This document shows positions 7,245-55,581 of a stretch of DNA of 64,000 bases, piece after piece. This stretch comes from Cerasicoccus sp. TK19100. GTDB taxonomy: Bacteria; Verrucomicrobiota; Verrucomicrobiia; Opitutales; Cerasicoccaceae. Every line of letters starts with the position of its first letter. The stretch's first letter is position 1. The notes below the pieces were generated by a model. That model did not search any database, was not told where the DNA came from, and worked only from the letters and a program-made list of their open reading frames with translations. The position numbers were made by a program, and so were the translations under genes. The DNA is taken from NCBI RefSeq assembly GCF_027257155.1, contig NZ_JAPWDU010000008.1, forward strand, positions 118,949-182,948, in the 5' to 3' direction.

Positions 7245-10200
7245 CGTAATGAAATGATTTTATACCTGCGACCATATCCATCGCCCGGCCGTTGTGGTTT
7301 AAAGTAGTCCAATTGAGTCGGATCCGACCCGCTCGGTTCCACTGCCCCGGGAACGCGCTGAACGATGACCTCCAGCCAAGCCTCAGCTAGGGTATTCATT
7401 GAAATGTCGAGAGATTCTCCATATGCCCGGATCCGAAAAGTGTCAGACCTCACCGTCAACATACTCCCCAGAGCCAACAGCAAATCTCCTTGCGTCAAGT
7501 AGCCCGGCATACCGTTGGCCAACTTCTGCATATTACCATCACTCGTTTCTAGATTGGTCCAATCCAGATAATCCAGCCGGGTATTGATTCCTGACTCAAC
7601 CGAGAAATCAGGATGGGTATTCACTGGATCTTCGGCATCCAACTCAGTAGCCCAAATCGCAGCCTGCAACGGCCCCGCCAGCCCGGTTTCATCTGTTGCC
7701 AGCGAGCGATTCACAAAATCCCCAAGCGACAAGAATGGGCCACGCGCTTTCACCTGCTCAACAATATTGCCAGCCAATGCACGGATCTGGGCATCGGACA
7801 AACGCGAAAATCCCCGCCATGCGTCGAGGCTCGATCCATTGGGCAAAGTAAACTTTCCAAAAGGCGCACCTGCTTCATCATCAGTGGACAATGTAACTTC
7901 AGGCCCATCTAAATAATGGATCACAGAATCCCGGAGCCCCCCCAGCACAACCGCCCAGGCATCCACCGACGTTGAGTTCACATTAAAAGCGCCATCATTC
8001 ATTAAATTAGCCGCAGACCAATCGTAGGCATCAGCCCGCAGCTTCCCATCATTATCCAGGAGGCGCGCCTGTATCTGATTAAGCCCTTCCCCATCGTTCG
8101 TATGGAGACGCACCTGGGGATTCAACAAAGTTTCTGTCCCCGATAGCAGCCCCGGGAGTTGCTCCTCCAGCGACTTCTCCTCATCAAACACATCTACCTC
8201 CTGGTCGCAAAGCGTTGAGAAAAAATAGCCATCCCAAAGCTCACGGTTTAGCAAATAGCTATAATCCGGATAATAAACATCATAGAAAGTCCCATTATCG
8301 CCACGGTCATGCTCAACCGCGCCCATCAGACTATCTCGAGCGATCATCGGCGATGCAAATGAATTGCCAACCGGATGCATCGCATCGCCTCCACGCAATC
8401 CCACATTAGCATGCATTAGCTGGCCGATGGAAGACAAGGGAGCCGTAGGCACTTCATACAAAGTCACGAACGATTCACCACTTGCATTATCTGGCCCCCA
8501 GTAACCATGATTATCCGGCCCAATCGCAACCGCGCCTGGCAATGCAGACAGCGGCTCCAACTCACGTTTCCACCCGGATGCATTGCCAGTGTGAACGCGT
8601 CTCTTCGGAAAAGGAAAGGCACTCGTTTGCCCACGCGGATTAACATGGCCTGGCATCGCCAACGCATCGACATCCGAGTTCGGCATAAGGTAGCAATCGA
8701 ATCTCGCAAAGGGGCGCTTCGTTCCGATGTCCGCAAAAAGAAATTTTCCGCCGCCAATTGGCGCATCAACCCAATCCTGAGGCTCCCAACTCGACGGAAC
8801 CAACTTATCATAAAACTTGTAACTCCATAACCTTGGCTGCGATGAATCACTTTTGGACGAGTTCCAGCGCTTATCCCAATCGGTTATCAAGTAGCCGCTG
8901 ACACTCATCCAGTAGAGGTCCATAATCCTTAGGCTAAATTCTTGATCCATTTTTCCGGTGATCCCCGTCGGAATGGCGACACCACCTTGATAATTCCAAC
9001 CCTCTAAGGCCTCGATACCGTGCTCATTCCCACTGTCCGAGCCAGTATTTCCATAATCGATTTCGGAATACATCACAGGGCTGGAGTTCCCAAGGGAATA
9101 GACACGCAACTCTCCGGGAGCCAGCGTGTCGACATCACCCCCGTTGCCAATAATGAAGCTCTGCCCTTGCCCGGTGAACCAGTTGCTCACGGAACTGTCG
9201 GTCAAGTGCTCAAGGCGCACTTTGTCAAAATCAGTTCCGGTTCCGAGACCTCGAATCTCAACGGGATCCTTTGTATGAAATGCGAACTGCAACGGATAGG
9301 TATACTTCCCTGTCGCCATTCTCACCTTAATACCAAGAAACTCTAAGGATACGTTGTAGGGATTCCACAGCGTCACAACCGGATCCCAAATAACATCGAC
9401 CGCATGCGTGTGATCAGACCCTGCCGGCAGGACATCCAAAGCGGAATCTACCGGCCGCACACGGATACTGTAAAGGTATTGAACATTGGTTACTATTGGC
9501 GATAGCGCCGCATCGGTCGCACGAAGCAATGGAGTGCCAATAACAGCCTCTTCCGTGTCCTTGCCCAATGGATCTTCGGTATAACTATAGCCCAAGTTCA
9601 ATAAACTCGAAGTGGACTTGTCCGATGAATAGTTCGTCGGCAGTGGCAGATAGCCACGAGACCCGATCGAAGGAAGCCCCAAGCTTGAAAAATTTAAATC
9701 CTTGTATTGCCGGTAGTAGTTACGAAGGAGATGCCATGTGGGCCCATGGACGACATAATCGTCACCCTCTACCGAGAAAACATACGCCGCCTGATGATCC
9801 GCATACGGAATGTTCTCCTGCCCGGCAAAGAACGCGGATGAATTGAATTCAGCATCATCCATCTCAAATGCTAAACTGAGATCTTTCTTAAATCCACCAT
9901 CCCGTACATTAGTAAACAAACCTGACGAATAGCCAGTCAGAGAGTGAAAATAGCCTGGGCTGACATTCGCAACGTTACTGTCGAGCAAGGCAAGGTCAGA
10001 CAATTCAGACACAAAAGGAAGACGAGAGTCATTTACCGGAATATCTTGCATGCCGTCGATCATTCGCAAATCAGCAACCTGTCCCGCCGCCATAGCCTGC
10101 CACTTGGCAGGTGTATCTGTTGAAGGAGCTTCCGGTTCAGGTAAATTAATGCGCGCCTTGATCCCCTCATCGCCAACCCACCAGGCATAGCGTCCTACAG

Positions 10201-42812: not shown

Positions 42813-44729
42813 ATGAGCGAGAGTGCCCTTTCCGAATTAACCCAGCGCGAGCAAATCGCGACCCGCATTTACCCTTCTGCCGACGAGGCTTGTGCCTACG
42901 TGGCGGACGCCATTTCCCAACTGATCCAACAGCGCAACGAAGCCGGCAAGCCAACCGTCCTTGGCCTGGCCACTGGCTCGACCCCCGTGCGCCTTTACCG
43001 CGAGCTGATCCGCCGCCATCAGGAGGAAGGCCTGTCCTTCGAGCGCGTCATCACCTTCAACCTCGACGAGTATTACGGCCTCTCGGGTGACCACCCAGAG
43101 AGCTACCGCCGCTTCATGCAGGACCAACTCTTCGACCACATCGACATCAAGCCCGAGAACACCCATGTGCCCGATGGCCTTGCTCCGCGAACGGACGTCT
43201 TCGCCTCCTGCCATCAATACGAACAAGCCATTCTCGACGCTGGCGGCATCGATATTCAAATCCTCGGCATCGGTCGCACCGGCCACATTGGCTTTAACGA
43301 GCCCGGCTCCGGGCCGGAGTCACGCACGCGCCTGGTCACGCTGGACTCGCTGACCCGCCGCGACGCCGCTCGCGATTTTCTCGGCGAGGAAAACGTCCCG
43401 CGCCACGCGATCACGATGGGCGTGGGCACCATCCTCGATGCGCGAAAAGTTTTCCTGTTGGCCTGGGGCGAGTCCAAGGCACCGGTCCTGGCGGAGTCCG
43501 TCGAAGGCCCGCAAACGGAAAGCATTCCCGCCAGTTTTTTACAGCTGCATAAGAACTGCACATTCTGCATCGACAAGGCCGCCGCCAGCCGCCTCACCCG
43601 CGAACGCCACCCATGGCTCGTTGGCCCGGTGGAATGGGATAGCGCCATGATCCGCAAGTCCGTGCTTTGGCTGGCGCGCAAAACCGACAAGGCCTTGCTC
43701 AAGCTCACCGACGAAGATTACACTGAAAATGGCATGGCCGACCTGCTCACCGAGAAGGGCTCCGCCTACAATCTGAACATCGACATCTTCAACGTCACCC
43801 AACACACCATCACTGGTTGGCCGGGTGGCAAACCCAACGCCGACGACTCCAACCGTCCCGAGCGCGCCTCGCCATTTCCCAAGCGAAGCCTGGTGCTCAG
43901 CCCCGAGCCGACGGACGACGTATTTTGCCTCGGCGGCGTTATTCACCGGCTGGCCAACCAGGGGCACGATGTCACCGTCGCCTACATGACCTCCGGTAAC
44001 CTCGCAGTGCCCGATCCCGACGCCCGACGCGCCATTGAGCTCATCAACGAAATGGGCGAGAGCATCCAGGACGATACCGAGGTAAAGCACGCCCGTCTGT
44101 TAGAGCAACAACTCAACGAAAAGGGTCTGCTTGGCGAAGACACGCCGGAGCTACGCCAGCTAAAGGGCCTCATTCGCCGCGGCGAAGCACGCTCATCCGC
44201 CCGCCAGTTGGAGCTCGCGCCAGAGCAACTGCGCTTCCTCGATCTGCCCTTCTACGAGAATGGCCGCTACCGCCGCTTTAAAACCGACGAGGCAGATGTG
44301 GCCGCCATGGTAAAGCTGCTGGAGGAAATTCAACCGCACCAAATTTTTACCACTGGCTTGGGCCAGGACCCGCTTTCCTCGCCAGCACTTTGCTTCGATG
44401 TCCTGCTGTCCGCCCTCAAGAAATGCAAAGACAGCGCCTGGCTCAAAGATTGCCTTTTCTGGCTCTATCGCGGTCCGGGCGCGGAATGGGAAATGCATGA
44501 GATCGACATGGCCGTGCCTCTCTCTCCGGATGAGTTGGAATTTAAAATCAAGGGCATCTACCAACACCAGACTCAGCGCAGCCAGTCGCCGTCAGCTTCC
44601 CGACAAAGCGAAAATTCTTGGAATCTCGCCAGCGAGTTAAACCGCACCACCGCAAATTACTATGACCAACTTGGACTATCTGAATACGAAGCCATCGAAT
44701 GCTTCAAACGGTTCGAACCCCATGCTTAA
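42813..44729 (+). CDS. nagB: Glucosamine-6-phosphate deaminase fused to a PIG-L/LmbE-like domain
   Basis: 638 residues. Residues 1-270 are a NagB deaminase: LGLATGSTPVRLYREL, ITFNLDEYYGL, ILGIGRTGHIGFNEPG and AITMGVGTI. A linker leads to a PIG-L-like domain (about 350-630). NagB converts glucosamine-6-phosphate to fructose-6-phosphate and ammonia. In the PIG-L part the expected zinc motif SPHPDDD reads SPEPTDD, and the later DPHGTH region reads DPLSSP, so the deacetylase site looks lost, although the surrounding sequence is well preserved. It is the first gene of an operon with the ROK kinase, whose start overlaps its stop by eight bases. Confidence 0.92.
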   Translation: MSESALSELTQREQIATRIYPSADEACAYVADAISQLIQQRNEAGKPTVLGLATGSTPVRLYRELIRRHQEEGLSFERVITFNLDEYYGLSGDHPESYRRFMQDQLFDHIDIKPENTHVPDGLAPRTDVFASCHQYEQAILDAGGIDIQILGIGRTGHIGFNEPGSGPESRTRLVTLDSLTRRDAARDFLGEENVPRHAITMGVGTILDARKVFLLAWGESKAPVLAESVEGPQTESIPASFLQLHKNCTFCIDKAAASRLTRERHPWLVGPVEWDSAMIRKSVLWLARKTDKALLKLTDEDYTENGMADLLTEKGSAYNLNIDIFNVTQHTITGWPGGKPNADDSNRPERASPFPKRSLVLSPEPTDDVFCLGGVIHRLANQGHDVTVAYMTSGNLAVPDPDARRAIELINEMGESIQDDTEVKHARLLEQQLNEKGLLGEDTPELRQLKGLIRRGEARSSARQLELAPEQLRFLDLPFYENGRYRRFKTDEADVAAMVKLLEEIQPHQIFTTGLGQDPLSSPALCFDVLLSALKKCKDSAWLKDCLFWLYRGPGAEWEMHEIDMAVPLSPDELEFKIKGIYQHQTQRSQSPSASRQSENSWNLASELNRTTANYYDQLGLSEYEAIECFKRFEPHA

Positions 44730-51134: not shown

Positions 51135-51638
51135 ATGCCAGAAATTGTAGATGACAACATCGCCTGCTTGCGACAAGGCGTCACGCTGCTAGTGGAGTTG
51201 GGCGACGCCGCGTTTTCCGAGGGCCAAACGCTGTGCTTTGGCAGCTCAATTGGCCAGCATCTGCGGCACAATATCGACCACGCCTATTGTTTCCTGCGGG
51301 GCCTCGCCAGCGGCAATATCGACTACGACGCCCGCGCCCGCGACTCGCGGCTGGAAACCGATGTCGCCTACGCCAGCGACGCACTGGAGGACCTGGCCAA
51401 GGAACTGGCGACCATCAGCGAGGCCGATCTGGAAAAACCCGTCACTGTGATGATGGACTCCGGTGCCGCGATCCCCACCCCGGCGCACTCCACCGTGCGG
51501 CGAGAATTGCAATTTTTGCTGAGCCATACGGTGCACCACTATGCGCTGATCAGCACCATTCGCCGCATCCAGGGCTGCGAGACGCCAGCCGAGTTTGGCG
51601 TCGCTCCGTCCACGCTCAAACACCAGCTCGCGGAGTAA
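51135..51638 (+). CDS. DinB-like metalloprotein
   Basis: 167 residues of the DinB/YfiT helical fold. The metal-binding histidines are in GQHLRHNIDHAYCF and LLSHTVHHYALI, and the order of helices matches the superfamily. Members are thiol-dependent or unknown-function enzymes. The NRDE gene follows with three bases between stop and start, so the two form an operon. Confidence 0.85.
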   Translation: MPEIVDDNIACLRQGVTLLVELGDAAFSEGQTLCFGSSIGQHLRHNIDHAYCFLRGLASGNIDYDARARDSRLETDVAYASDALEDLAKELATISEADLEKPVTVMMDSGAAIPTPAHSTVRRELQFLLSHTVHHYALISTIRRIQGCETPAEFGVAPSTLKHQLAE

Positions 51639-51641
51639 GGC

Positions 51642-52388
51642 ATGTGCACGGCGACTTGGTGGAACGGCGCAGACGGCTACGAGCTGTTTTTTAACCGCGA
51701 CGAGCTCAAGACGCGTGACCTCGGCCTGCCACCACGCGAAGAACTGCTCAATGGCATTCGCTACCTCGCACCGCTCGATCCTACCGGCGGCGGCACTTGG
51801 CTACTCGTCAATGAATTTGGCCTGACCATCTGCCTGATCAACCAATATCCGGACAACCCGCGCAGCCCCGGCGCTCACCGCATCAGCCGGGGGCGGCTCG
51901 TCCGCAGCTTTGCCGACTGCCGGGACATCGCCGAGGTAAAAAGCCGCATCGCCGGCGCGGACCTCTGCCGCTACGAAGCGTTCTTACTCATCGCCGTCCA
52001 GCCCGGCCACGCCGGCCAAACGTTTACCTGGGACACCCGTTGCCTGTCGCAAAAGCAGGTTACCCAGCCGCAGCCCTTCACTTCGTCCAGCCACTTGCCC
52101 GACGAAGTCCTGCGCAGTCGACGCCGACGCTTCGGTGAGCTGATTCGCCTGCGTGGCGGCGATCCCACGCCCGACGACCTGCGCGCCTTCCACGAGCACT
52201 TCGCGCCGGAGACCGCGGCGCACTCCGTCTTTATGTCCCGCAGTGACGCCAGCACCGTCAGCCTTTCGCACGTGATGGTGGATCACGAAACGATCACGCT
52301 CGAATATGCGCCCCGCATTCCGGGTGCCTTTCAATTCGACCGCGCGCACCGCCACCAGTTGCCCCGCCGCCAAGCCTGCGTCGCCTAA
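51642..52388 (+). CDS. NRDE-family (TANGO2-like) protein
   Basis: 248 residues. The N-terminal Cys2, revealed by the start MCTATWW, and the motif FNRDELKTRD match the NRDE/TANGO2 family, whose members are Ntn-hydrolase-like. TGGGTWLLVNEFGLTICLINQYP is also typical. The biochemical role is not established; heme or acyl-CoA links have been proposed for TANGO2. The gene follows the DinB gene at once, and a hairpin repeat follows. Confidence 0.9.
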   Translation: MCTATWWNGADGYELFFNRDELKTRDLGLPPREELLNGIRYLAPLDPTGGGTWLLVNEFGLTICLINQYPDNPRSPGAHRISRGRLVRSFADCRDIAEVKSRIAGADLCRYEAFLLIAVQPGHAGQTFTWDTRCLSQKQVTQPQPFTSSSHLPDEVLRSRRRRFGELIRLRGGDPTPDDLRAFHEHFAPETAAHSVFMSRSDASTVSLSHVMVDHETITLEYAPRIPGAFQFDRAHRHQLPRRQACVA

Positions 52389-52413: not shown

Positions 52414-52504
52414 GGTAGGGCGCAGTCTCCAGACAAGCCGCCGCGTCCAGTTGACTACGTTTTTCACTCCAACGTGGCGGCTTGTCTGGAGACTGCGCCC
52501 TACC
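52414..52504. repeat. 32-bp-arm inverted repeat with T run, between the NRDE gene and the fusion gene
   Basis: The left arm GGTAGGGCGCAGTCTCCAGA (52414 onward) and the right arm ending TCTGGAGACTGCGCCCTACC (ending 52504) pair over 32 bases with one mismatch; the loop is 27 bases. The right arm is followed by CTTTTTT. It looks like a repeat element and could also act as a transcription terminator. The fusion gene's start at 52513 is only nine bases past its end. Confidence 0.9.
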
Positions 52505-52512
52505 CTTTTTTA

Positions 52513-55101
52513 ATGGCCGCCAAACACCCAATTCGGCGCTGGTTCTTGATCGCGTTTTTAATGCTGTTGGCGGCGTCGACGCTGGTGCGTTGGCAACTCC
52601 CGGCCGAGGGCGAACTCCTGCCCGAGCAGCAGCGCATAACGCTGCCCGAATACAACGATACACAACCCACAGGCCGCGACATCCAAATCGCCTACCGCGA
52701 CTTGCCAGCCAACGATTCCGATGCGCCGACAGTGGTCATCATCCACGGTAGCCCAATGGGCTCGCGGGCAATGGACCAGTTGATCAGCGAATTGCGAGGA
52801 AAGTATCGCCTTATCGTGCCCGACTTGCCCGGCTTCGGCGGATCGACGATCAACGTAGCCGACCACTCCGTTGAAGCCCACGCCTACAATGTGCGCGACC
52901 TGCTGACGATGCTCGACATCGAGCAGGCCCACGTCGTCGGCTACAGTCAGGGCGGCGGCGTGATTCTCCACCTGGCCGACCTCGCGCCCCAGCAGGTTGC
53001 CTCGCTCACCATGCTGTCCGCCATCGGTGTGCAGGAGCTGGAGTTGCTGGGCGACTACACGCTAAACCACGCGCTCTACTCCGCGCAGTGGCTCGGGCTC
53101 TGGTCGCTACAAAACTTTTTCCCGCACTTTGGCACCATGGATCATGGGCTGCTGAATGTTGCCTACGCGCGCAATTTCACCGACACCGACCAGCGCCCCC
53201 TCCGCGGCTTGCTCGAAAATTACGACGGCCCGATGCTGATTCTTCACGGCGAAAAGGACGCCATGGTCCCCTTTGCCGCGGCCACCGAACACGCCCGATT
53301 GGTGCCCCAAGCCTCGCTGCAAACCTTACCCGACGAGGGCCACATGATCCCCTTCACGCACGAGGCGTGGACAGCAAACCGCATTGGCGAATTCGTCGGC
53401 CAGGTCGAACGCGGCGAGGCAACCCTGCGCAACCAACTCAGCCCCGAGCAACTCGCCGCCGCCAAGGAAAACGCTCCGCCGCCCGCCCCCGCCCGTGGCG
53501 GCGCGCTCGTGTTTTACTTCGTCGTGCTGATCCTGGGTTCGTTTATTTCGGAAGACCTCTCTTGCATCGCTGCTGGTATCCTTGCCTCGCAGGGCGTGAT
53601 CGATTTCTGGTCGGCCACCATTGCGAGCTTGCTCGGCATCTTCCTCGGAGACGTCGGGCTCTACGCGCTGGGCCGCTGGCTCGGGCACCCGTCTCTCCAT
53701 CGCGCGCCGATGAAGTGGTTCCTCAAAGAGCAGGACCTCGAAGCCGCCGAAGAGTGGTTCAAGCGGCGCGGCCCGGCGTTGATTTTGCTCACGCGATTCA
53801 TTCCCGGCTCGCGGCTGCCCACCTATTTTGCTGCGGGCGTGCTGCGCGCGCCCTTTGGTCAATTTACGTTTTACCTGATGCTCGCGGCCGTCATCTGGAC
53901 TCCGATTCTTGTCGGCGCGTCGATGTTCCTCGGCCAACAGTTCCTCGACTTCTTTGGCCGTTTTGAAAAGTGGGCACCCCTGCTCTTCCTCGCGTTTATT
54001 TTCGGGATGCTTTGCATCACAAAGTTAATTACGCCCCTGATGACCTGGGAGGGCCGCCGCCTGATGCTCGGCAAATGGCGGCGCACGACACAGTGGGAGT
54101 TCTGGCCGTTCTGGGCCGTGTACCCACCGGTCATTGCTTACGTGCTTTTCAAGGGCGTGAAGCATCGTCGCCTGGCGCTCTTCACCGCCGTCAACCCAGC
54201 GATGCCGATGGGTGGCTTTGTCGAAGAATCCAAGGCCGACATCCTGCGCGGCCTCGCTGGCGCGGGCGATGTGATTGGCCGGTGGATCCTGCTCGCGCCA
54301 GCACCGCTCGAATCGCGGCTCGCTCAGTTCGAAGCATTTCTCAGCGACCAACAACTCACCTACCCCATCGCGCTCAAGCCCGACATCGGCCAGCGCGGCG
54401 AGGGCGTCAAGATCATCAAAGACCACGCCCAGGCCGGTGATTATTTAACGCGCTGTAAGCTGCCCGTCATTGCGCAAGAGTTCCTCCCCGGCCGGGAGTT
54501 CGGCGTGTTTTATTACCGCCTGCCCAACGAACAAACCGGCGTCACCTGGGGCATCACCGACAAACGATTCACGAGCGTAACCGGCGATGGCAAGCACTCA
54601 CTGCGCCACCTGATTCTTGCCGACGACAGGGCCGTCTGCATGGCACCACACTTTCTGAAGAAGCACATCAAGCACCTGAACGATGTCCCTGCCGAAGGCG
54701 AGCAATACACCGTCGCCGACCTCGGTACTCATTGCCGCGGCTCGCTGTTTCTCGATGGCTCCCACTTGATCACGCCCGCGCTCAGCACCGCGATCGACGA
54801 AGTAAGCCAGCACTACGAGGGCTTCTACTTTGGCCGCTACGACGTCCGCGCGGAAAACGAGGAAGCGCTGCAACGCGGCGAGTTTCGCGTTATCGAGCTT
54901 AACGGCGTTTCCTCCGAAGCCACCTGGATCTACGACCCGCAGCACTCCGTATTCTTCGGTTGGCAAACGCTCATCGCGCAGTGGCGCATTGCATTCCAAA
55001 TCGCTGAGCAAAATCGCCAAAACGGCACGTCCCCCGACAAAGCCCTCGATGTCATCCGCCTGATTCTGCGCCAGCGAGAGCGTGAAGTTTTCGAAGCATG
55101 A
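52513..55101 (+). CDS. Three-domain protein: alpha/beta hydrolase, DedA/VTT membrane domain, ATP-grasp-like domain
   Basis: 862 residues from ATG 52513; upstream in-frame starts lie inside the repeat and encode no sensible sequence. A membrane helix (about 9-24) precedes an alpha/beta-hydrolase domain (about 50-298) with Ser145 in GYSQGG, Asp249 in GEKDAM and His277 in EGHMIP. Residues 328-500 are a DedA/VTT domain with SEDLSCIAAGILASQG and RFIPGSRLPTYFAAG. A linker with another helix (about 531-546) is followed by an ATP-grasp-like domain (about 600-820): KPDIGQRGEGVKI, EFLPGREFGVFYY, FGRYDVRA and RVIELNGVSSE. The three activities on one chain suggest a membrane lipid or cell-wall precursor pathway. 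This is inferred; I know of no described example. Confidence 0.88.
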   Translation: MAAKHPIRRWFLIAFLMLLAASTLVRWQLPAEGELLPEQQRITLPEYNDTQPTGRDIQIAYRDLPANDSDAPTVVIIHGSPMGSRAMDQLISELRGKYRLIVPDLPGFGGSTINVADHSVEAHAYNVRDLLTMLDIEQAHVVGYSQGGGVILHLADLAPQQVASLTMLSAIGVQELELLGDYTLNHALYSAQWLGLWSLQNFFPHFGTMDHGLLNVAYARNFTDTDQRPLRGLLENYDGPMLILHGEKDAMVPFAAATEHARLVPQASLQTLPDEGHMIPFTHEAWTANRIGEFVGQVERGEATLRNQLSPEQLAAAKENAPPPAPARGGALVFYFVVLILGSFISEDLSCIAAGILASQGVIDFWSATIASLLGIFLGDVGLYALGRWLGHPSLHRAPMKWFLKEQDLEAAEEWFKRRGPALILLTRFIPGSRLPTYFAAGVLRAPFGQFTFYLMLAAVIWTPILVGASMFLGQQFLDFFGRFEKWAPLLFLAFIFGMLCITKLITPLMTWEGRRLMLGKWRRTTQWEFWPFWAVYPPVIAYVLFKGVKHRRLALFTAVNPAMPMGGFVEESKADILRGLAGAGDVIGRWILLAPAPLESRLAQFEAFLSDQQLTYPIALKPDIGQRGEGVKIIKDHAQAGDYLTRCKLPVIAQEFLPGREFGVFYYRLPNEQTGVTWGITDKRFTSVTGDGKHSLRHLILADDRAVCMAPHFLKKHIKHLNDVPAEGEQYTVADLGTHCRGSLFLDGSHLITPALSTAIDEVSQHYEGFYFGRYDVRAENEEALQRGEFRVIELNGVSSEATWIYDPQHSVFFGWQTLIAQWRIAFQIAEQNRQNGTSPDKALDVIRLILRQREREVFEA

Positions 55102-55188: not shown

Positions 55189-55581
55189 ATGAAAATCGTC
55201 AATGCACTGCTGGTTATCATACTCTTGGCTTTTGCGGGCTTCCTCGTGTTTGGGAGCAACGACAACCGGCCAAGACAAGTAATACTGTCTGTCTTGCCCT
55301 TTGATATGGTTCCGCAGCGCTGGGCGATCATGGATAAACGCATCTTTCCGCCCAGGACATATAAGGTCAACGGAGGCTTGGTCCAAAGTAAGCAACAGTA
55401 TCATCTCATCTGCCTTGGCGAAGCGACTCGCGAGACATACTCGTTCATCGTGCCCGAGCAGGTGTATTTCGAAATTCAGCGCGGTCACATCTTCGGCCAT
55501 GAAGATGTCAGGCAGTGGTATCGCATTCAGGGTGCGCCCGAGATACCCGTGCTCCACTTCAACGCAACGGAACACTCCTAG
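55189..55581 (+). CDS. Small membrane-anchored protein, unknown function
   Basis: 130 residues with an N-terminal hydrophobic anchor (NALLVIILLAFAGFLVFGS) and a mature part without known motif. The plus-strand frame is preferred to an overlapping minus frame because of this anchor. The mature part contains RTYKVNGGLVQSKQQYHLICLGEATRETYSF and ends with FNATEHS. It may be transcribed with the preceding fusion gene, 87 bases upstream, but no link is proven. Confidence 0.55.
   Translation: MKIVNALLVIILLAFAGFLVFGSNDNRPRQVILSVLPFDMVPQRWAIMDKRIFPPRTYKVNGGLVQSKQQYHLICLGEATRETYSFIVPEQVYFEIQRGHIFGHEDVRQWYRIQGAPEIPVLHFNATEHS

Follow-up and report, generated by a model that had tools for sequence, protein, structure and literature searches.

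What might a single protein do that joins an alpha/beta hydrolase, a DedA/VTT membrane domain and an ATP-grasp domain in one chain? The question is raised by an intact open frame of 862 amino acids (52513..55101, plus strand) in a 64,000-nucleotide stretch of the genome of Cerasicoccus sp. TK19100, here called the window; coordinates without a locus label refer to it. Our answer is that the fusion protein is probably part of a lipid-side module. A more specific reading, which we put forward tentatively and would not call probable, is that it modifies amino-acid-containing membrane lipids of the ornithine or glycine type, with the ATP-grasp domain acting on the head groups. The enzymes for part of the remodelling of such lipids are still missing, and the fusion family is a candidate for them. 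One gene cluster makes two open questions testable, i.e. which ligase adds the second residue to N-acyl amino-acid lipids, and what job is done by TANGO2, a conserved neighbour of the family.

Three domains in one chain

Three domains with their key residues had been proposed in a sequence-only reading of the window, and this is borne out by Pfam matches, by the predicted fold and by conservation in an alignment of 121 rows (the query, its database copy P0002 and 119 others, i.e. the closest relatives listed). All domain positions that follow are on the plus strand. The chain begins with a helix at residues 6-28 (52528..52596), a predicted membrane anchor according to the AlphaFold2 (AF2) model and hydropathy. 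Since residues 1-8 carry two Lys/Arg and no Asp/Glu by charge count, the charge pattern around this helix suggests that the hydrolase domain is periplasmic. This domain (residues 36-301, 52618..53415) belongs to the alpha/beta hydrolase superfamily by Pfam cut-off, fold and Ser-Asp-His triad; Ser145 is kept in 120 of the 121 rows, Asp249 and His277 in all of them. The DedA/VTT domain (residues 330-509, 53500..54039), visible as helices in the AF2 model, is a member of PF09335 (79.2 bits, gathering score 33.9), and its residues E347, D348, D380, R428, P431, G432 and R434 are present in every row. With 70.5 bits it stays below the cut-off of 250 of the UptA equivalog NF052604.

The ATP-grasp domain with its lead-in helices (residues 512-856, 54046..55080) was delimited from the AF2 model, structure matches, profile and conservation. 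Because the 50 best matches listed for the whole model all aligned to the hydrolase part, the ATP-grasp part was folded separately; the ATP-grasp fold was predicted with high confidence, and the domain folded alone found structure matches. Residues K622, E662, D777, E795 and N797 are invariant in all 121 rows, and we take K622, D777, E795 and N797 to be the ATP-/Mg-binding Lys, Asp, Glu and Asn of ATP-grasp enzymes. Loss of the ATP-grasp residues, which would have spoken against the proposed domain, is not seen in these rows. The D-alanine--D-alanine ligase model PF07478 is matched by 2 of 59 aligned members, weakly (best E 0.0012), and not by the window's protein. No domain looks decayed among the 121 aligned close relatives, and, judged by these residues, all three domains are real and apparently active.

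A widespread family and its neighbours

A search with the full protein returned 2574 proteins within the E-value limit, many of which may match through one domain only. At least 120 homologues of the full protein are listed, one of them its own database copy, and all 120, with lengths of 826-908 aa, carry the hydrolase and VTT Pfam domains in one chain, which rules out a sequencing or assembly artefact as the source of the fusion. Named hosts among them include Cerasicoccus, Ruficoccus, Rubellicoccus, KSB1, Rhodothermales, Acidobacteriota, Blastocatellia and Gemmatimonadota. The rarity implied by the sequence-only reading is thus contradicted, and a rare oddity is ruled out, as homologues occur in many genomes and several phyla. 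Its remark that no example had been described did hold: in the literature, as far as its text was accessible to our search, we found no description of a hydrolase-DedA-ATP-grasp fusion, and where both terms, DedA and ATP-grasp, occur in one paper, they refer to genes that have nothing to do with each other or stand in a citation.

A search with the ATP-grasp part also retrieves VTT+ATP-grasp proteins (~540 aa) and proteins consisting of ATP-grasp only (~340-390 aa). In the window's phylum, Verrucomicrobiota, the ATP-grasp domain was found in 39 of 387 genomes (E<=1e-15), in the phylum of a Spirochaetales record (L003) in 20 of 198, and 28 plasmid records match, all proteobacteria by name. For the analysis of neighbours 63 loci were taken with wide flanks. 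They come from 35 of the 39 phylum genomes (all except G150, G224, G299 and G305), two genomes named Cerasicoccus, the 20 positive genomes in the phylum of the Spirochaetales record, and six plasmid records out of the 28; at 17 of the 63 the flank on one side is shorter than 7 kb, so that neighbour counts are lower bounds. The domain order of the window's protein recurs as the full fusion, read in one frame, at 22 of these loci. Among the Verrucomicrobiota loci 20 have hydrolase+VTT+ATP-grasp, 13 VTT+ATP-grasp and 4 ATP-grasp (L042, one of these four, being a full fusion whose frame is broken); the corresponding numbers are 2, 13 and 5 in the Spirochaetales-record phylum and 0, 1 and 5 on plasmids. 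A single origin of the triple fusion is unsupported, since on a tree of 60 ATP-grasp domains (L042, L048 and L126, with short ATP-grasp hits, are left out) the hydrolase label is gained or lost 10 times, at least 5 of them forced by well-supported branches.

Two groups of members stand apart. L042, L048 and G224:C1:1518207-1519203 have broken frames, with several frames or stops, each in a single genome. L046, L125 and L127, of the f4 lineage, encode divergent hydrolase+VTT+ATP-grasp proteins in small genomes (1.8-2.3 Mb); TANGO2, DinB and PF13444 neighbours were not found at these three loci, PF13444 is present at another place in two of the genomes, and these proteins may do something else.

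The conserved neighbours in the window are a DinB_2 family protein of 167 aa (51135..51638, plus strand; PF12867, E 1.8e-8, 35.3 bits, cut-off 24.8) and a TANGO2/NRDE family protein of 248 aa (51642..52388, plus strand; PF05742, E 1.2e-8, 35.9 bits, cut-off 22.6). In DinB the residues His41, Arg43, His44, His130, His133 and His134, which resemble a metal site, are kept in 42 of 42 aligned neighbours; in TANGO2 Cys2 is kept in 26 of 27 and the NRDE residues in 25-26 of 27. Within 3.5 kb and on the same strand as the ATP-grasp gene, profiles seeded from part of the 63 loci themselves find DinB at 42 of the 63 loci (25/37 in Verrucomicrobiota, 15/20 in the Spirochaetales-record phylum, 2/6 on plasmids), TANGO2 at 27 (24/37, 1/20 and 2/6, respectively) and YHS-like proteins at 7/37, 0/20 and 1/6. 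The "self-contained" module of the sequence-only reading does not agree with such frequent company of DinB and TANGO2. In the annotation of a Salinivibrio record VTT, "D-alanine--D-alanine ligase", DinB and NRDE (TANGO2) are four separate adjoining genes, and in Vibrio sp. THAF191d, where the order is the same, genes for a YHS-like and a small membrane protein come next, and then an OlsF-like gene. The small YHS-like proteins recur beside hydrolase-free members (L043, L047, L053, L110, L111, L113, L114, L124), and small membrane proteins judged DoxX-like by eye recur near several of the YHS-bearing loci; the one at L053 has no Pfam match.

TANGO2 and ATP-grasp are also associated at the level of genomes. 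TANGO2 was found in 28 of the 387 phylum genomes, namely in 21 of 39 with ATP-grasp and 7 of 348 without (Fisher 2e-18, kinship ignored), by a Pfam search that missed at least G000, G164 and G229, where the neighbour profile finds it. The link exceeds gene order, because in G340, G023, G015 and G355 the TANGO2 and ATP-grasp genes are apart; in G158 the distance from TANGO2 to a second, partial ATP-grasp hit is about 4 kb. Gene order and co-occurrence together tie TANGO2 to a lipid-linked ATP-grasp family.

A possible role in aminolipid modification

The lipid context rests on genes with PF13444, the N-acyltransferase domain that OlsB, GlsB and OlsF have in common. Such a gene lies within 8 kb at 13 of the 63 loci (Verrucomicrobiota 9/37, Spirochaetales-record phylum 2/20, plasmids 2/6), each confirmed by Pfam, and on the same strand at 7, 2 and 2 of them, respectively; in the 35 phylum genomes about 0.17 would be expected near ATP-grasp and 9 were seen. 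A PlsC-type gene accompanies it in L040, L043, L047 and L113, and the GNAT protein of L040 is nearest to OlsB and the PlsC protein of L043 to OlsA, both under the equivalog cut-offs. All 13 loci belong to hydrolase-free forms of the family. The lipid context proposed earlier is therefore supported by OlsB/OlsA/OlsF-type genes beside some shorter members; as to the neighbourhood check for lipid or peptidoglycan genes, the lipid part stood at hydrolase-free loci, but a recurrent peptidoglycan gene was not seen by eye in the neighbour clusters. At the window's own locus the 8 kb on either side of the fusion gene contain no PF13444 gene. The genome contains a single OlsF-like gene (607 aa, L107) away from that locus; its best match in the library is OlsF (NF052615, 386 bits, cut-off 620), i.e. 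it is OlsF-like and below the OlsF equivalog. PF13444 is carried by 17 of 18 sampled hydrolase-fusion genomes, and by 32 of 39 ATP-grasp genomes as compared with 184 of 348 others (p 2.9e-4, kinship ignored).

A working scheme can be drawn from these observations. The starting point would be an N-acyl, O-acyl amino-acid lipid with a free alpha-carboxylate, supplied by an OlsF-like enzyme that is encoded elsewhere in the genome. The cytosolic ATP-grasp domain would phosphorylate this carboxylate and couple it to an amine such as taurine or a second amino acid, and the product would be a dipeptide-type or otherwise amidated lipid. Putative transport by the DedA domain would carry it to the outer leaflet of the inner membrane, where the periplasmic hydrolase might trim an acyl chain off the lipid or turn the lipid over; TANGO2 might bind the acyl group or pass it on, with DinB as a metal-dependent partner. 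Sidedness, substrate, the individual reactions and the contributions of TANGO2 and DinB are all inferred. Judged by the predicted topology, ligation would take place inside and hydrolysis outside, so that events may run in the opposite order to the release, flipping and ligation that had been proposed.

It is doubtful, but worth stating, that the ATP-grasp family is the missing class of ligases that adds the second residue of Ser-Gly and ornithine-taurine head groups, with TANGO2 as its acyl-handling partner. The window's ligase would then be fused to the exporter of its product and to a remodelling hydrolase, and TANGO2 would gain a concrete biochemical job. Two-part head groups on record are serine-glycine and taurine-ornithine (PMC12493201); the gene that ligates serine to glycine lipids is described as still to be identified, with the serine step drawn with question marks (PMC12746155, December 2025), and the flavolipin pathway is called unknown (PMC10191378). 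According to PMC12746155, when B. dorei was screened with Pfam models for peptide-bond formation, PF07478 included, the only hits were proteins already characterized or belonging to primary metabolism. None of the models named there is matched by the window's protein, and PF07478 is the one matched by two aligned members, so a search of this kind would mostly miss the ATP-grasp family. The function of TANGO2 is disputed between heme and acyl-CoA (acyl-coenzyme A) roles (PMC12782551, PMC11867700): the human protein binds acyl-CoA and an NRDE mutant loses the binding (PMC11867700). By keyword we found no literature that links TANGO2 with ATP-grasp, TANGO2 with DinB, or ornithine lipid and taurine with ATP-grasp.

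Standalone ATP-grasp proteins are present in Komagataeibacter, Gluconacetobacter and Novacetimonas. Cerilipin is the taurine-ornithine lipid of Gluconobacter, and it stays a lead, since the name Gluconobacter is absent among the 120 ATP-grasp matches listed, the majority of them without an organism name. Ser-Gly lipids are known from gut Bacteroides. In Komagataeibacter oboediens (L055, 4043-5897) the standalone ATP-grasp gene adjoins genes annotated as an S-adenosylmethionine (SAM) methyltransferase and an iron-containing redox enzyme; a lysophospholipid acyltransferase is nearby, and the neighbourhood is of a different kind.

Several observations weigh against a role on aminolipids. None of the 22 intact hydrolase-fusion loci (20 Verrucomicrobiota, 2 Spirochaetales-record phylum) has a PF13444 gene in its flanks, which were covered up to 8 kb on each side (for 4 of the 22 less than 7 kb on one side), so that the lipid link of the window's own form is indirect. 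PF13444 is common (216 of the 387 phylum genomes), and since it also matches in E. coli and Bacteroides ihuae among 14 control genomes, the domain alone is no proof of an aminolipid. Seven of the 39 ATP-grasp genomes (G150, G176, G224, G261, G305, G376, G074) lack a PF13444 hit; three of them are in the divergent f4 lineage, and G224 and G074 have broken ATP-grasp genes. The distribution of GH3 (OlsH-type) does not explain them: 3 of 12 chosen genomes were positive, two of these PF13444-negative, but GH3 as a substitute aminolipid synthase was dropped, with 7 of 39 ATP-grasp genomes against 40 of 348 others; one family, f3, accounts for 26 of the 47 genomes that have GH3. As regards TANGO2, it is adjacent at just 1 of the 20 Spirochaetales-record loci, and 7 of the 28 TANGO2 genomes of the window's phylum have no ATP-grasp.

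The scarcity of acyltransferase genes at the fusion loci can be read differently. The ATP-grasp domain might itself couple fatty acid and amino acid to an N-acyl amide, with O-acyl transfer by the hydrolase-fold domain, after the manner of OlsH and OlsI, OlsI being an alpha/beta-hydrolase-fold O-acyltransferase that works with the ATP-dependent amide synthetase OlsH (PMC12493201). OlsB or PlsC-type genes are near none of the 22 hydrolase-fusion loci and an OlsB-type gene is near 13 of the 41 others, and the fusion genomes G176, G150 and G305 (G150 and G305 judged by open-frame length) have no PF13444. We nevertheless hold this to be unlikely, because the PF13444 gene is kept in nearly all sampled fusion genomes, the hydrolase is predicted to lie outside, apart from cytosolic acyl donors, and N-acylation is already covered where OlsB- and OlsA-type genes adjoin the ATP-grasp gene (L040, L043). 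Lipid salvage, with a periplasmic hydrolase that frees fatty acids or lyso-lipids, import by DedA, re-activation or conjugation by ATP-grasp and TANGO2 as acceptor of the acyl group, would use the same parts and seems to us improbable as well.

Two further explanations have considerably less in their favour. In a cell-wall module DedA would recycle undecaprenyl phosphate and ATP-grasp would work as a D-Ala-D-Ala-type ligase; the UptA score far under its cut-off, the weak PF07478 matches in so few members and the lack of a recurrent peptidoglycan gene by eye in the neighbour clusters, part of which had a family-library search, make this very unlikely. TANGO2 could also be the main actor of a heme module in which the rest serves cytochrome assembly, as the bacterial homologue HtpA of Shewanella is reported to act in heme trafficking (PMC10470608). 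The heme role is challenged (PMC12782551), and no recurrent heme or cytochrome gene was seen by eye in the neighbour clusters. To our knowledge neither the ligase nor DedA has a heme role, and we regard such a module as scarcely credible.

Other elements of the window and comparison with known systems

Between TANGO2 and the ATG of the fusion gene lies a hairpin whose stem has 33 pairs without a break, with a T run behind it (52414..52504; -75.3 kcal/mol, z -12.4). It has many like copies in its own genome (82 match rows at E<=0.01, both strands and its own place included); in C. maritimus this position is occupied by another hairpin, similar in style but not in sequence identity the same one (L001, about 7908-7993, by eye), and C. 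frondis has none at the equivalent place. The hairpin could damp read-through into the fusion gene. Downstream of the fusion gene a small protein of 130 aa with an N-terminal hydrophobic stretch is encoded (55189..55581, plus strand, by eye), and a similar open reading frame is found at this place in C. frondis (L002, 10646-11038). Farther away, at 42813-44729, a 638-aa frame combines glucosamine-6-phosphate-deaminase-like and PIG-L/LmbE-like parts (by eye) and is followed by ROK-like and PIG-L-like genes.

Each domain of the fusion protein has known counterparts. With the DedA/VTT proteins UptA and YqjA the window's protein shares a VTT domain above the Pfam cut-off and conserved acidic and arginine positions, but its VTT domain is fused to two enzyme domains and is far from the UptA equivalog. 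The membrane phospholipase A 6i8w aligns with hydrolase residues 4-301, N-terminal helix included, though with a high whole-length root-mean-square deviation, and the aligned chain (310 residues) has no DedA or ligase domain. Cyanophycin synthetase, GshF, LysX/ArgX and Ddl join an amine to a carboxylate. The ATP-grasp fold and the Mg/ATP residues are common to these enzymes and the window's domain, while identity is 9-17% among the structure matches listed and the window's domain is membrane-linked.

Closest in terms of the proposed role are the aminolipid pathways. OlsF and OlsB-OlsA (and GlsB-GlsA) are the best-matching models for neighbours of some shorter members and for one gene of the window's genome, and their lipid product bears the free carboxylate that a ligase would need; Vibrio cholerae has two functional OlsF proteins (PMC12186959). 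Unlike the scheme proposed here, these pathways end at a one-amino-acid lipid, and neither an ATP-grasp ligase nor DedA is mentioned in the accessible text on them. The ligases mentioned in the part of an aminolipid review available to us are fatty-acid AMP/CoA ligases (PMC11631085), and the corresponding part of a paper on N-acyl tyrosine mentions neither a ligase nor ATP-grasp (PMC12479983). The OlsH-OlsI system of Singulisphaera resembles the fusion in as much as ATP-dependent amide formation is combined with an alpha/beta-hydrolase-fold protein in aminolipid synthesis. The two differ in that OlsH is GH3-like rather than ATP-grasp, the genes are separate, and the accessible description mentions no DedA domain, while in the window's protein hydrolase, DedA and ATP-grasp domains are parts of one chain.
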